Below, piece after piece: positions 7,959 through 13,187 of a stretch of 44,754 nt of DNA (the stretch's first letter is position 1; the number at the start of each line of letters is the position of its first letter). Position numbers and translations under genes: made by a program. The notes under the pieces were generated by a model that ran no database searches, was not told where the DNA came from, and saw only the letters and a list, made by a program, of their open reading frames with translations. Location: positions 1 to 44,754 of the forward strand of contig CACIPQ010000008.1 of assembly GCA_902588585.1 (NCBI GenBank), given 5' to 3'. This stretch comes from an uncultured Pelagibacteraceae bacterium. GTDB taxonomy: Bacteria; Pseudomonadota; Alphaproteobacteria; Pelagibacterales; Pelagibacteraceae.

Positions 7959-8825
7959 TTAATCAATCCCTTCTCCCACTTTGAATCTGACAAAATCTAA
8001 TACTTTGATTTCGTTACCGTCTGAATGCTGTTTAATAACCTGACTTACTTTCATTTTTGTATCCATTATCCAAACCTGATTTAACAGCGTATTGTCTGAA
8101 ACAAATTTTTTAATTTTACCGTTTGCAATTTTTTCAATCATATCTGTTTTCTTTCCGGTATTTTTCAACTCTTCTTTAATAATTTCAAGCTCTTTATCTA
8201 AAATCTCCTTTTTTATACCACTTTCGTCTATAGCGATTGGGGATTGTGCAGCTATATGCATGGCTAATTTAACCCCTATTTCTTTTAAGTCTTTTTTATT
8301 ATTTTTACTCAATTGCACTATTGCTACTACCTTGCCAATATTTTTTTCTACCGAATTATGCACATAGGCAAAATTTAATCCCTTATTGTCAAAATATTTA
8401 CTTCTTCTAATAGTAATTTTTTCTCCGATTTTAGATATTAAAGAAATCAAATTTTCATCTACAGTTTTTCCATTTTTCATTTTACTTAATTTTAATGAAT
8501 CTAAATTTGATTTGTTTTGAAAATTTATTTCTGAAATTTCCTTGCAAAATAAAATAAAATCTTTATTTCTTGCAACGAAGTCTGTTTCACTGTTAATCTC
8601 AATGGCTGAAATTGTGCCGTTTTTTTCCTGTATTAAAGCTAATCCATCGGCTGCTATTCTTCCCATTTTCTTTGAAGCCTTAGCTATGCCTTTTTTTCTT
8701 AAATACTCTATAGATTTATCTATGTCACCATTATTTTCTTCGATAGCTAGCTTACAATCTTTAAAGCCTACACCTGTAATCTCTCTGAGTTTTTTTATAC
8801 TTTCTAAGATTTCTTTGCTGGACAT
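7959..8825 (-). CDS. tsf: Tsf, translation elongation factor Ts
   Basis: Nucleotide exchange factor for EF-Tu. The 288 residues contain the N-terminal UBA-like domain with LREITGVGFKDCKLAIEE, the EF-Tu contact motif TDFVARN near residue 81, and the core block AMHIAAQSPIAID. The C-terminal ends in VLDFVRFKVGEGI, which is typical. It lies 22 bases after rpsB with no terminator in between, so it should share the rpsB transcript and its leader control. Confidence 0.98.
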   Translation of the reverse strand: MSSKEILESIKKLREITGVGFKDCKLAIEENNGDIDKSIEYLRKKGIAKASKKMGRIAADGLALIQEKNGTISAIEINSETDFVARNKDFILFCKEISEINFQNKSNLDSLKLSKMKNGKTVDENLISLISKIGEKITIRRSKYFDNKGLNFAYVHNSVEKNIGKVVAIVQLSKNNKKDLKEIGVKLAMHIAAQSPIAIDESGIKKEILDKELEIIKEELKNTGKKTDMIEKIANGKIKKFVSDNTLLNQVWIMDTKMKVSQVIKQHSDGNEIKVLDFVRFKVGEGID

Positions 8826-8847: not shown

Positions 8848-9654
8848 TTATTTTTTAGCTGTCTTACTAGCTTTTTCTTTTTTACTTTTGTCTTCATTCT
8901 TTATTTCTTTTTGGATATTTTTAATTTTTGGTTTTACTTGATTTTCACTCACTTCTTTTTTTGCAATATATTTTTTTGCATCTATAATTGTATCTTTTAA
9001 AACTTCACAATATAAATTTATTGATCTTCTAGCATCATCATTTCCGGGTATAGGATAATTAATTCCTGTTGGATCTGAGTTAGAGTCTAAAATTGCAATT
9101 ATTGGAATGTTTAATTTAATTGCTTCTTTTACTGCGATAGATTCAACGTTTGTATCAATAATGAAAAGCATGTTAGGAACTGTTTTCATTTCAGCTATAC
9201 CGCCTAATGATCTTTTTAATTTATCTCGTTCTCCTGTAAATTTTAAAATTTCTTTTTTTGTAAATCCGATATCTTCTTCTTGAGATAGATCTTTTTCTAA
9301 TTTTTTTAATCTTTTGATAGAATTCTGTATTGTTTTCCAATTAGTCAACATTCCACCTAACCATCTATGATTTACGTAAAATTGATTTGTTTCATTTGCT
9401 ACTTTTAAAACACTTTCTGCAGCTTGTTTTTTTGTAGAAACAATCAAAATTTTTCCACCACTTGAAATACACTTGTGAGCTTCTTGCATGGCGTCTTTGA
9501 TTAAAGTTACTGTTTTGGTTAGATCAATAATATGAATAGAATTTTTTTCACCAAAAATGAATTTTTTCATTTTCGGATTCCATCTTAAAGTTTTGTGTCC
9601 TAAATGAACGCCTGCTTCTAATAATTGTTTTATAGATACGTTTGGTATATTCAT
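8848..9654 (-). CDS. rpsB: RpsB, 30S ribosomal protein S2
   Basis: Binds late at the back of the 30S head-body junction. The protein starts MNIPNVSIKQLLEAGVHLGH and carries the S2 signatures GHKTLRWNPKMKKFIFGEKN, VNHRWLGGMLTNW and GINYPIPGNDDARRSI. At 268 residues it has a Lys-rich C-terminal tail (after about residue 230), common in alphaproteobacteria. It is preceded by a 113-base gap holding a promoter-like sequence and a folded leader (see separate entries). S2 is known to repress its own rpsB-tsf operon in E. coli. Confidence 0.98.
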   Translation of the reverse strand: MNIPNVSIKQLLEAGVHLGHKTLRWNPKMKKFIFGEKNSIHIIDLTKTVTLIKDAMQEAHKCISSGGKILIVSTKKQAAESVLKVANETNQFYVNHRWLGGMLTNWKTIQNSIKRLKKLEKDLSQEEDIGFTKKEILKFTGERDKLKRSLGGIAEMKTVPNMLFIIDTNVESIAVKEAIKLNIPIIAILDSNSDPTGINYPIPGNDDARRSINLYCEVLKDTIIDAKKYIAKKEVSENQVKPKIKNIQKEIKNEDKSKKEKASKTAKK

Positions 9655-9720
9655 AATTTTTCCGGTTAAACCACCACAGCTTTCCTTTCGGACCGGTGGG
9701 CTTTCACCCTAATGCTGTGT
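9655..9720 (-). promoter_or_regulatory. Structured rpsB leader RNA, candidate S2 autoregulatory element
   Basis: The minus-strand 5' UTR of rpsB is unusually GC-rich for this genome and folds compactly. A closing stem pairs CACAGC (9719-9714) with GCTGTG (9680-9675). Inside it are two GNRA hairpins, GGGT-GAAA-GCCC and TCC-GAAA-GGA. The unpaired CCACC (9699-9695) can form a pseudoknot with GGTGG (9675-9671). Alternatively CCGGT (9696-9692) pairs with ACCGG (9666-9662), whose GG and following A form the probable ribosome-binding GGA about 8 bases before ATG. Structured rpsB leaders in Pelagibacter and other alphaproteobacteria have, as I recall, been proposed before; this assignment rests on position and visible pairing. 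Confidence 0.75.
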
Positions 9721-9736
9721 GCGAAATTAAATAGTA

Positions 9737-9763
9737 CTTATAGTTTATTAGAAATAAAATCAA
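9737..9763 (-). promoter_or_regulatory. Candidate promoter for rpsB-tsf operon
   Basis: On the minus strand TTGATT (9763-9758) is followed after 15 bases by TATAAG (9742-9737), directly downstream of the dnaE stop. Transcription would start near 9730, just before the folded rpsB leader. The 15-base spacer is short for a housekeeping promoter, so the -35 assignment is weak; the -10 and its position are better. Confidence 0.45.
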
Positions 9764-9767
9764 GATA

Positions 9768-12700
9768 TTAAAAAGTGATTTTTTTTACATATTCTTTGTT
9801 TTTAATATGGTTAAAGATACCAATATTAAATTTTCTTAGGTTTTTTAATGAAAAGGTGTAAATTTTTGATGTATTTTTAATCTTAATCTCAATCTTTGTA
9901 TTTCCGTCTTCTTTTAATATTGATTGGAGTTCGTTCAAATCGGATTGATTGGCAACCTCTATAGTAACTTTTTCATATTCTTGTTTTGTAAAGTCACCAA
10001 GATTAGTTAGCTTTTTGATGTTTATTCGTCTTGAAAAAGAAGAGTTGTTTGAAGTTTCTTTTTGTAAAGTCAGTATGAAAGAATTGGCTGCTTTAAGATT
10101 TTCTCTATTTGAAACCAATAAATCTGAAAATAAGAATAATTCAAATTCACTTTTTAGATCACTAAATTTTACAATTGCAAAAGGAGTTCCTTTTGAACTT
10201 TTCTTTTCTTGTATAGACATAATGGTGCCGGCCACAATAGCGGTGATTTCTTGACCTTCATTAAAGTTATTAAAAGACACAACTTTCATTTTCTCAAAGT
10301 AGTCTTCATAAGCTTTAAGAGGATGGTCAGACATATAAAATCCTATAGATTGAAATTCATTCATAAGATTCTCGTTTTTAGACAGTGGTTCAATTTTTTC
10401 TAGTTTAAAAATTAATGACTCATCATTTTCGTTATTAGAAAAAAGACTGTTTTGATTACTGGATCTTTCTTCCCAAAGACTTTTGCTTAATTGTATTAAT
10501 CTTGGAATAGATTTTATTATAGAATTTCTATTTGATTCTAGATTATCGAAAGCACCTGCTTTGGATAATCCTTCTAATTGAAGCTTGTTTATATCCTTTG
10601 GATTTACCCTTTTTATAAAATCATTTAACGATTTAAATTTTCCATTTTTTTCCCTCTCTTTAACAACGTTTGATATTGCTTCACGGCCTACACTTTTAAT
10701 TCCTGATAAAGCATAATAAATTTTATTTTTTTCTGGTTTAAAGTCGGCAAAACATTTGTTTATACAAGGTCTTATAACTTCTATATTAAGTCTTTTTAAT
10801 TCCTCAACAAATTCTCTAAGTTTATCTGTGTTTGATATTTCTGTTGTCATTGTTGCGGCTATAAAGTCTTCTTTATAGTAATATTTTAAATACGCAGTTT
10901 GATAAGCAATTAAAGCATATGCTGCTGCATGACTTTTGTTGAAACCGTACTCTGCGAATGGTTTTATTTTTTGAAATATAAATGAAGCAATATCTTTACT
11001 TATTTTGTTTTTAACAGCACCTTTTATAAACTTTTCTTCTTGTTTTTCTAATTCCTTTCTCTTCTTTTTTCCCATTGCTTTTCTTAAAATATCCGCTTCA
11101 CCTGCTGTAAAACCGGCAAGAACCTGTGCTATTTGCATTACTTGTTCTTGATAAATAATAATACCATAAGTTGGTTTAAGAATTTTTTCTAAACTTGCGT
11201 GAATGTAATCAGGTTTTTTTATTCCATTTTTACAGTCATTATAGATTGAAATATTATTCATTGGTCCAGGTCGATATAAAGCAACTAGTGCTATAATATC
11301 TTCAAATTGATTTGGTTTCATTTGTCTCAAAGCTGATCGAACACCTGAGCTTTCTAATTGAAATAATCCGGTTGTTTCACCCGTAGAAAGCATTTTGTAT
11401 ATTTCTTTATCGTTCAAAGGAATTTTACTAATATCCACTTCTATTTTTTTATCTTTCAACATTTGAACTGTCTTATGAATTACGGTTAGAGTGTTTAATC
11501 CTAATATATCAAATTTTACTAACCCGGCATTTTCTGAGGAATGCATATCAAATTGTGTGGAAGGCAAAAGTAAATTAGAGGTAGTATCTTTATATAAAGG
11601 GACCTGATCTGATAATTTTTCTCCAGCTATAACTACGCCAGCTGCATGTGTGGCTAAATTCCTATTCAATCCTTCTAATTTTAAGGATAATTCTATTAAT
11701 TTTTTAACCTTTGGATTATTTTTTTCTTCTTCTTTTATCCTGGGTTCTCTCGAAATAGACTCTTGAAGACTTAATGGTCTTGAGGGATCAAATGGAATCA
11801 TTTTACAAATTTTATCTACGTGTCCATACGGTAAACCAACAACTCTTCCTATATCTCGCAGAGCCATTCTAGCTTTAAGTTTTCCAAAAGTTATTATATG
11901 TGCCACTCCTCCTTTATATTTTGATTTTAAATATTTAAAAACGAGATCCCTTTTTTCTTCACAAAAATCAATATCAAAGTCAGGCATAGAAATTCTATCT
12001 GGATTTAAAAATCTTTCAAAAATTAATCCAAATTCTATTGGATCAAGGTCTGTTATATCTAGAGAATATGCTACCAAAGAACCTGCTCCCGATCCTCTTC
12101 CAGGACCAACTGGAATATTATTTTTTTTTGCCCATTTTATATAGTCAGACACAATTAAGAAATATCCGGCGTAATTCATTTTATTAATAATATCTATTTC
12201 ATGCGATAGTCTTTCTTTATAAATTTTTTCTATTTTAGATTTATCTAAAGATTTATTTTTTTTAAATATAAAATTTTTAAGTCTATTTTCTAAACCAAGT
12301 TTGGATTGAGCCGAAAGTTCTTCTTTCTCTGTTAAATTGCTAGATATTTTTATTGAAGGAAGAATAGGTTCTGATTTTTTTAATTTATAGCTAAATCTAT
12401 ATGGAAAATTATAATTATTCTCAAGCGCCTCTGGTAAATCTTGATATATTTTTCTAATTTCATCTGACGATTTTATATAGTGTTGATCGCTATATTTTTT
12501 TCTATTTTTTTCATCTACATACGTTTTTTCACCAATACAAAGCAAAGCATCATGGGCTTCATACATATCTTTTTCAATATAATAGATTTCCTGTGAAGCT
12601 ATAAGTGGTACTTTAAATTTATTAGATAATTTTATAAAAATGTTTTCAATATTTTTTTCTCCAACATCACCATGTCTTTGTATTTCAAAATAAAAATTAT

Positions 12701-13187
12701 CTAAAAATGTTTTTTTAATATTTGAAACAATTTCTTCCAGTTGCTTTAAATTATTTTTTTTTACCAAATTCGAAAAAAGTGAATCAATTCCACCACTTAA
12801 TACTATAAGATCTTCAGCATTTTTAACGAGATCCTCTATTAAACAGTGTGGAATATCATCGTCTTTGACCTCTAGATAACTTCTAGATGATAGTTTGGTC
12901 AAATTACGATAACCTTTTTCTGTTTTAGCGAAAACTGTTAGTTTTCCTAAAGTATCATAAAATTTAAAATTTATTTGCGATCCAATAATTGGTTGGGTTC
13001 CTGTTTTGCTAATTTCTTCAGAAAACTCTAAGGCACCGCACAAATTGAAGCTATCGCTTAATCCGATAGATTGAATTTTGTTTTCTTTGCAATATTTTGC
13101 TAAATCTTGGATCTTAATAGCACCTTCACAAATAGAATATTGTGTATGTATTTTAAAATGTGTGAAGTTTTTTGGTGCATTATCCAT
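9768..13187 (-). CDS. dnaE: DnaE, DNA polymerase III alpha subunit
   Basis: Catalytic subunit of the replicative polymerase. The 1139 residues show, in order, an N-terminal PHP domain with a degenerate metal site (FKIHTQYSICEGA, about residues 11-23), then the C-family polymerase core with GPGRGSGAGSLVAY (about 361-374). The catalytic aspartates are D403 and D405 in PDFDIDF, and D560 in KFDILGLNTL. A beta-clamp binding pentapeptide QNSLF lies at residues 912-916, followed by an OB-fold (about 978-1050). The start overlaps the lolD stop by 8 bases, so dnaE is read from the long nuo-to-lol transcript or an internal promoter I cannot see. Confidence 0.98.
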   Translation of the reverse strand: MDNAPKNFTHFKIHTQYSICEGAIKIQDLAKYCKENKIQSIGLSDSFNLCGALEFSEEISKTGTQPIIGSQINFKFYDTLGKLTVFAKTEKGYRNLTKLSSRSYLEVKDDDIPHCLIEDLVKNAEDLIVLSGGIDSLFSNLVKKNNLKQLEEIVSNIKKTFLDNFYFEIQRHGDVGEKNIENIFIKLSNKFKVPLIASQEIYYIEKDMYEAHDALLCIGEKTYVDEKNRKKYSDQHYIKSSDEIRKIYQDLPEALENNYNFPYRFSYKLKKSEPILPSIKISSNLTEKEELSAQSKLGLENRLKNFIFKKNKSLDKSKIEKIYKERLSHEIDIINKMNYAGYFLIVSDYIKWAKKNNIPVGPGRGSGAGSLVAYSLDITDLDPIEFGLIFERFLNPDRISMPDFDIDFCEEKRDLVFKYLKSKYKGGVAHIITFGKLKARMALRDIGRVVGLPYGHVDKICKMIPFDPSRPLSLQESISREPRIKEEEKNNPKVKKLIELSLKLEGLNRNLATHAAGVVIAGEKLSDQVPLYKDTTSNLLLPSTQFDMHSSENAGLVKFDILGLNTLTVIHKTVQMLKDKKIEVDISKIPLNDKEIYKMLSTGETTGLFQLESSGVRSALRQMKPNQFEDIIALVALYRPGPMNNISIYNDCKNGIKKPDYIHASLEKILKPTYGIIIYQEQVMQIAQVLAGFTAGEADILRKAMGKKKRKELEKQEEKFIKGAVKNKISKDIASFIFQKIKPFAEYGFNKSHAAAYALIAYQTAYLKYYYKEDFIAATMTTEISNTDKLREFVEELKRLNIEVIRPCINKCFADFKPEKNKIYYALSGIKSVGREAISNVVKEREKNGKFKSLNDFIKRVNPKDINKLQLEGLSKAGAFDNLESNRNSIIKSIPRLIQLSKSLWEERSSNQNSLFSNNENDESLIFKLEKIEPLSKNENLMNEFQSIGFYMSDHPLKAYEDYFEKMKVVSFNNFNEGQEITAIVAGTIMSIQEKKSSKGTPFAIVKFSDLKSEFELFLFSDLLVSNRENLKAANSFILTLQKETSNNSSFSRRINIKKLTNLGDFTKQEYEKVTIEVANQSDLNELQSILKEDGNTKIEIKIKNTSKIYTFSLKNLRKFNIGIFNHIKNKEYVKKITF

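Follow-up and report, generated by a model that had tools for sequence, protein, structure and literature searches.

Between dnaE and rpsB, the stretch of Pelagibacteraceae DNA analyzed here (44,754 nucleotides in all, referred to below as the window) carries a short segment in which a single loop strand can be written as the partner of two different sequences, raising the question of whether the rpsB leader acts as a two-helix switch or as a simpler operator. According to the original prediction, the joining strand J2-3 alternates between GGUGG, located just after stem P1, with the ribosome-binding site (RBS) free, and ACCGG, with the RBS hidden, the toggle being ribosomal protein S2.

Anatomy and identity of the leader

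By sequence inspection, all the parts named in that prediction were found on the minus strand between dnaE and rpsB. The features of the region are given below in the direction of that strand.

9768 to 13187, minus strand: open reading frame upstream of the leader, presumably dnaE.
9714 to 9723, minus strand: 5' strand of P1, comprising CGC (9723 to 9721), a bulged A (9720) and CACAGC (9719 to 9714); based on the RF01815 structure line, the minimum-energy fold, core covariation in 76 distinct SAR11 leaders, and the association of 9722 with the middle base of GGNGG.
9698 to 9709, minus strand: P2 hairpin, GGG-UGAAAG-CCC, GAAA-capped; compensated in SAR11, with GC, AU, UA and CG types.
9692 to 9696, minus strand: J2-3, the 5' strand of the pseudoknot, CCGGU; found in 80/80 SAR11 leaders and covarying with the 3' strand in other Alphaproteobacteria and in Gammaproteobacteria.
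9684 to 9691, minus strand: P3 hairpin, CC-GAAA-GG, of 2 bp as in P. ubique; based on the sequence, the minimum-energy fold and section 6 of PMC2704228.
9671 to 9680, minus strand: 3' strand of P1, GCUGUG (9680 to 9675), followed by GUG (9674 to 9672) and G9671; the GGUGG of the original prediction is 9675 to 9671. Based on the Rfam structure line, the minimum-energy fold, covariation and association; a partnership with J2-3 is unsupported.
9662 to 9666, minus strand: 3' strand of the pseudoknot, ACCGG, found in 79/80 SAR11 leaders; its final GG and A9661 form the Shine-Dalgarno (SD)-like stretch closest to the start.
8848 to 9654, minus strand: rpsB, ribosomal protein S2 (268 aa), the presumed regulated gene; based on the open reading frame and homologues, with the AUG at 9654 to 9652.
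7959 to 8825, minus strand: open reading frame after rpsB, which we take to be tsf (EF-Ts).

The name tsf is presumed from the sequence and the gene order, and that of dnaE, which we likewise assume, follows the original prediction; P. ubique has the same upstream neighbor. From 5' to 3', the leader runs CGC-A-CACAGC, a GAAA hairpin, ACCGGU, another GAAA hairpin, GCUGUGGUGG, UUUA, ACCGG, AAAAAUU and AUG, with CCACCGGU at 9699 to 9692 (minus strand) between P2 and P3. It ends at the AUG of rpsB, so the element lies in the rpsB 5' leader, and 7 nt separate the end of ACCGG from that codon. Both complementarities, CCGGU/ACCGG and CCACC/GGUGG, can be written in the letters of the window. The two GNRA hairpins said to be enclosed by P1 are indeed present, P3 also appearing in the minimum-energy fold of the window, but their loops are not conserved, that of P2 differing within the genus and that of P3 beyond it. 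Folding energy was rejected as evidence, since neither the 76-nt leader (-20.4 kcal/mol; z of -1.27) nor the 168-nt stretch (z of -0.04) stood out from shuffled sequences.

The suspicion that a structured rpsB leader of SAR11 might already be catalogued proved right: the leader is the SAR11 form of the already described rpsB motif (PMC2704228; RF01815). Meyer et al. (2009; PMC2704228) reported this motif from most Alpha- and Gammaproteobacteria and from the dnaE-rpsB gap of 'Candidatus Pelagibacter ubique', and a table in the same paper places it between dnaE and rpsB. Section 6 of that paper describes P1, short P2 and P3 hairpins, and a pseudoknot of five pairs formed by the strand joining P2 and P3 with an extension after P1. 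Since P2 has three pairs in the published text on P. ubique, the joining strand here is ACCGGU, and thus CCGGU/ACCGG fits that text. The window resembles the motif, as far as the text of the paper describes it, in the gene, the dnaE-rpsB gap, P1, a P2 of 3 bp, a P3 of 2 bp and a five-pair J2-3 pseudoknot, while it differs in scoring below the Rfam cut-off. RF01815 matched positions 9648 to 9723 with 31.6 bits against a gathering score of 40 (E of 0.00014 on 401 bases, or 0.016 when the whole window was searched), and this was the sole match at an E of ≤1 in the genome searched. At the gathering threshold, Rfam yielded three tRNAs only over the window. The top three named S2 matches were from Pelagibacteraceae (82 to 85% identical), placing the window in the same group as P. 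ubique.

Across 289 genomes of Alphaproteobacteria, RF01815 exceeded its cut-off in 73 and reached an E of ≤0.01 in 187, in searches whose filters lose weak matches, which suggests that the cut-off is too stringent for Alphaproteobacteria. The printed part of the RF01815 structure line shows no pseudoknot pairs.

Conservation of the two candidate pairings

Homologues of rpsB were found in 79 of the 99 family genomes, that of the window included, and no genome with a completeness of ≥90% lacked one (40/40). These 79 genomes rendered 80 SAR11 leaders (one genome gave two), 76 of them distinct in their last 84 nt; the 20 genomes without a leader were all at most 84% complete. A set of 29 named SAR11 loci was not independent of these, since 10 of its leaders duplicate members of the 80, leaving 19 new ones. 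For the other Alphaproteobacteria, the 30 best RF01815 loci, the 30 best protein-search loci and 40 regions picked from that protein search, partly because they were missed by RF01815, gave 94 leaders after removal of 6 duplicates (in the last 60 bases) from the 100. The gammaproteobacterial sample consisted of the 30 best RF00127 loci, a further 20 regions chosen from the other matches and Escherichia coli K-12, which left 49 leaders after 2 of 51 were dropped as duplicates. All the Fisher and shuffle figures given below ignore shared ancestry.

CCGGU/ACCGG was exact in 79 of the 80 SAR11 leaders, the remaining one having ACCGA and retaining four of the five pairs. In the named set, 28 of the 29 loci could be anchored and the pseudoknot was present in 28/28, while the unanchored one (L271) has CCGGU and ACCGG by eye. 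When P1, P2 and the pseudoknot were considered together in the 76 distinct SAR11 leaders, 95.4% of the cells were paired and 7 pairs had changed on both sides, neither value being reached by any of 500 shuffles; the number of further pair types was reached by 41 of the 500. The 95.4% figure understates the pseudoknot, since one additional base ahead of ACCGG shifted its columns by one in 8 rows of the alignment (A1), whereas 79/80 is an exact count. All 7 doubly changed pairs sit in P1 and P2, and the pseudoknot never changed on both sides within SAR11.

The covariation check proposed for this helix could thus be decided only outside SAR11, where the strands vary, and it was passed across Alpha- and Gammaproteobacteria. 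Among the 94 distinct leaders of other Alphaproteobacteria, 73 had the consensus strands, and the other 21 retained five pairs (14 leaders), four (6 leaders) or two (1 leader). These divergent leaders kept 96 of 105 pairs against a shuffled mean of 89.9, with 1 of 5,000 strand shuffles as high when shared ancestry was ignored. By visual inspection, some divergent J2-3 strands seem to be misaligned (L182, L196, L202, L204, L211, L215 and L217). Changes on both sides included CUGGU/ACCAG (L170, L172 and L201), CCGAU/AUCGG (L180 and L199), CCAGU/ACUGG (L200 and L224) and UCGGU/ACCGA (L194). For their part, 43 of the 49 gammaproteobacterial leaders, E. coli included, kept five pairs, 4 kept four and 2 kept two; the both-side variants were GGGGU/ACCCC, which was present in 35, CGGGU/ACCCG, UGGGU/ACCCA and AGGGU/ACCCU.

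Scans blind to the pseudoknot, made with pairs of five-column segments (well-filled columns only, listed above 90% standard pairs for Alphaproteobacteria or 85% for Gammaproteobacteria), placed P1 first and the pseudoknot next in both classes. In the gammaproteobacterial scan, another segment pair came close behind (5 cells changed on both sides and 87% paired, versus 7 cells and 96% for the pseudoknot). In general, P1, the bulged A, GGNGG and the pseudoknot are common to the leaders of both classes and kept in SAR11, and a linker of 4 nt was observed in 72/80 SAR11, 78/94 other alphaproteobacterial and 47/49 gammaproteobacterial leaders. The comparison of sequences supports CCGGU/ACCGG as a conserved, predicted helix that overlaps SD-like purines upstream of the start and fits the published pseudoknot; the proposed pairing of the loop strand with ACCGG was upheld.

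Among the named non-SAR11 loci, the anchor failed in 21/51 and 5 of the 30 anchored ones had no exact complement; by eye, some of the unanchored loci carry the motif and others do not (L291, L294 and L300, for example). One of these, L300, is titled Pelagibacterales and was counted as non-SAR11; its S2 is 55% identical to that of the window, and no sign of the motif was seen before its rpsB, for which loss, a wrong label or a distant lineage are alternatives. Three SAR116 loci (L288, L289 and L293) keep CCGGUG and UUAACCGG, with the GGNGG after P1 replaced by AT-rich sequence.

Compensatory changes were to be looked for in both helices. The second one, CCACC/GGUGG, did not exceed the level of shuffled sequences. 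Its middle bases paired in 26 of the 80 SAR11 leaders, with about 28 expected by chance from the marginal counts, and over the 76 distinct leaders pairing reached 86.8%, versus a shuffled mean of 87.1% (349 of 500 shuffles at least as high). The middle position, the one that varies strongly, was unpaired in 50 of those 76, whereas the four outer pairs were invariant or showed wobble-only variation. No association was found between the J2-3 base and the middle base of GGNGG, either in SAR11 (478 of 2,000 shuffles; n = 80) or in other Alphaproteobacteria (1,024 of 2,000; n = 78 of 94). Instead, this middle base was associated with base 2 of the 5' strand of P1 (1 of 2,000 shuffles in SAR11, n = 80; 0 of 2,000 in other Alphaproteobacteria, n = 76 of 94). 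These tests used only those alphaproteobacterial rows that were free of gaps and had a G on both sides of the middle base, and their shuffles ignore relatedness. Moreover, both the Rfam structure line and the minimum-energy fold assign the GUG of GGUGG to the base of P1, which it closes across the bulged A.

CCACC/GGUGG was thus rejected as a helix: it pairs at shuffle level, its middle bases are not associated, and P1 uses its GUG. A two-state switch would call for two competing helices that are both conserved or covarying, and one such helix was found. Although both complementarities can be written in the window, and the near-invariance of the outer CCACC/GGUGG pairs in SAR11 speaks for the second one, a middle position that is mostly unpaired and lacks association makes the two-helix toggle fall. 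We therefore regard S2-driven alternation of J2-3 between GGUGG and ACCGG as highly improbable. Judging from the text of PMC2704228, the labels of the original prediction look crossed, the pairing called a pseudoknot (with GGUGG) being the unsupported one and the pairing said to hide the RBS being that which fits the published pseudoknot. A second pairing proposed on the basis of one sequence should first be compared across relatives, and only then be interpreted as a switch.

The P1 pair beyond the bulged A, 9722/9673, is mostly nonstandard (A-A, U-C or G-U/A), and its bases are associated in SAR11 and in other Alphaproteobacteria. This pair and the bulged A may belong to the S2 contact.

Position of the pseudoknot relative to the start codon

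In SAR11, the 3' end of the pseudoknot lies at a median distance of 8 nt from the start codon (range, 4 to 12; n = 80), and the named set gave the same median (range, 6 to 8; 28 anchored of 29 loci). The corresponding distances were 17 nt in other Alphaproteobacteria (range, 9 to 79; n = 94) and 18 nt in Gammaproteobacteria (range, 11 to 80; n = 49). A separate SD lying wholly downstream of the pseudoknot strand (ΔG of ≤-3.5 with the 16S tail, start codons being assigned by homology) was detected in 6/80 SAR11, 87/94 other alphaproteobacterial and 49/49 gammaproteobacterial leaders. By contrast, an SD-like stretch overlapping the pseudoknot strand was present in 75/80 SAR11 leaders (ΔG cut-off of -3). 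The six SAR11 leaders with a separate AGGA (L042, L046, L050, L051, L053 and L056) all belong to a single genus among those drawn (g9), so the fusion of pseudoknot and ribosome site is not universal.

The earlier identification of GGA as the likely SD held in part. An SD-like stretch does overlap the strand, but the firm statement that GGA is the SD was rejected, since at the expected position 4/80 SAR11 leaders read GGUU and 1/80 reads GAAA, and SD use in the window is modest. When sites 40 nt further upstream served as the control, a ΔG of ≤-3 was found at 13 of 38 genes versus 8 of 38 control sites, and a ΔG of ≤-5 at 5 of 38 versus 0 of 38. A search for the exact 16S 3' end with CCUCC found it in 5 of 41 family genomes; the genome of the window, where that part may be missing, gave no match. 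Given such modest use, we emphasize the location of the pseudoknot within the ribosome footprint more than the SD itself. What the data carry is that the pseudoknot strand lies in the ribosome-binding region.

A similar arrangement was observed in a few other Alphaproteobacteria. The 6/94 leaders with tails of ≤12 nt all read ACCGGAG, in which GGAG begins on the pseudoknot strand, whereas this sequence occurred in 14 of the 88 leaders with longer tails (Fisher P of 4.8e-5, with the 12-nt limit set after the lengths had been seen and ancestry ignored). Five of the families drawn contributed these six leaders (two from f107 and one each from f34, f64, f114 and f67), one of which, L192, also has a separate SD.

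It is tempting to suppose that SAR11 has fused the S2 operator pseudoknot, located upstream of the RBS in relatives, with that site into one five-base strand, and that a few other short-leader alphaproteobacterial families have done so separately, the operator thereby becoming a device for direct occlusion; we hold this tentatively, as a conjecture with slightly less than an even chance of being right. The SAR11 geometry was not found stated in the literature searched, and earlier work may already discuss it. In PMC2704228, section 6 does not place the pseudoknot in the ribosome-binding region of SAR11, and the main text never uses the term 'Shine-Dalgarno' (0 occurrences). Judged by leader comparison, the SAR11 fusion would be a small measured addition to a known element. 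If it is true, short leaders would be the simplest system for solving the repression by S2 of its own mRNA, a natural form of about 70 nt with the pseudoknot inside the ribosome footprint offering a simple prediction and a small construct.

Proposed regulation by S2 and its alternatives

A review (PMC10931766) describes the repression of rpsB-tsf in E. coli by excess S2, which needs S1 for this; repression by S2 was also stated in the original prediction. In the review's account, the mechanism is called unclear because the RBS lies outside the operator, and in-cell probing showed an architecture shared by the S2 sites on 16S rRNA and on rpsB mRNA. The E. coli rpsB-tsf leader (t44; RF00127) resembles that of SAR11 in P1, in CACAC...GUGGAGG and in a pseudoknot, GGGGU/ACCCC, that follows the same 4-nt linker. 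Leaders of the E. coli type differ in the longer pseudoknot-to-start distance and in their separate SD, with the RBS outside the operator according to the same review. In E. coli K-12 (L112, 213 to 348), the leader bears the annotation of a putative small RNA (tff, T44). Rfam keeps RF00127 apart from RF01815, although the two leaders correspond in their pseudoknot, linker and P1.

The SAR11 leader is built on a three-way junction in which P2 and P3 are very short hairpins and P1 has a bulged A close to its base, and it contains one pseudoknot, CCGGU/ACCGG. We consider it likely that it is an S2 autoregulatory element in which the S2-stabilized pseudoknot blocks initiation, that is, a fold-or-open operator and not a two-helix toggle. 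An excess of S2, perhaps together with S1 as in the reports on E. coli, would bind the folded leader and stabilize the pseudoknot; with the ACCGG strand then kept paired within the ribosome footprint, the 30S subunit would be unable to start rpsB. As S2 is drawn into ribosomes, the pseudoknot would open and rpsB would be translated. Direct block of initiation by an S2-stabilized pseudoknot is most likely, with the binding, stabilization and repression by S2 all taken as presumptive steps. Given the modest SD use, hiding the SD may matter less here than sitting in the ribosome footprint, and since the review places the E. coli RBS outside the operator, the mechanism may differ between the two systems. 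While the E. coli mechanism is still described as unclear in that review (PMC10931766), the SAR11 short form has the conserved pseudoknot itself in the ribosome footprint.

One point against the fold-or-open operator is that a GC-rich helix of 5 bp might form without S2, leaving the translation of rpsB then unexplained. In an alternative reading, the same RNA would no longer regulate through S2 in SAR11, and its pseudoknot would set a constant low or S1-dependent initiation rate or protect the mRNA; in its favor, P2 and P3 are minimal in the window and in P. ubique, and S2 regulation in SAR11 is presumed. We find this unlikely, because SAR11 has kept the parts common to Alpha- and Gammaproteobacteria (P1, the bulged A, GGNGG, the pseudoknot and the 4-nt linker). 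Another reading takes CCGGU and ACCGG as sequences contacted by S2 whose complementarity is incidental. Strands that hardly vary in SAR11 and keep the consensus in most other Alphaproteobacteria are what would be expected of protein-contact sequences, and some variants do break pairs, as in the gammaproteobacterial leaders that keep four or two. The both-side changes that preserve pairing, such as CUGGU/ACCAG in Alphaproteobacteria and GGGGU/ACCCC in Gammaproteobacteria, speak against incidental complementarity, and we give this reading very little credence. The fold-or-open operator remains our preferred account.

A parallel is offered by the SAM-V riboswitch of P. ubique metY, in which, in the description available (PMC6061858), a pseudoknot adjoins the start codon and is proposed to block the SD when the ligand is bound. 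The SAR11 rpsB leader likewise has its pseudoknot beside the start codon, an analogy of mechanism only, since SAM-V as described there has a small-molecule ligand and a different fold.

Finally, TATA-like hexamers, located at 9737 to 9742 in the window, tend to lie 16 to 20 nt upstream of the CGCAC of P1 in SAR11 leaders. Of 142 pattern matches between -30 and -8, 71 were at 16 to 20 nt upstream, a count made without control for the AT-rich background, and these hexamers hint at a possible promoter of rpsB's own inside the gap.
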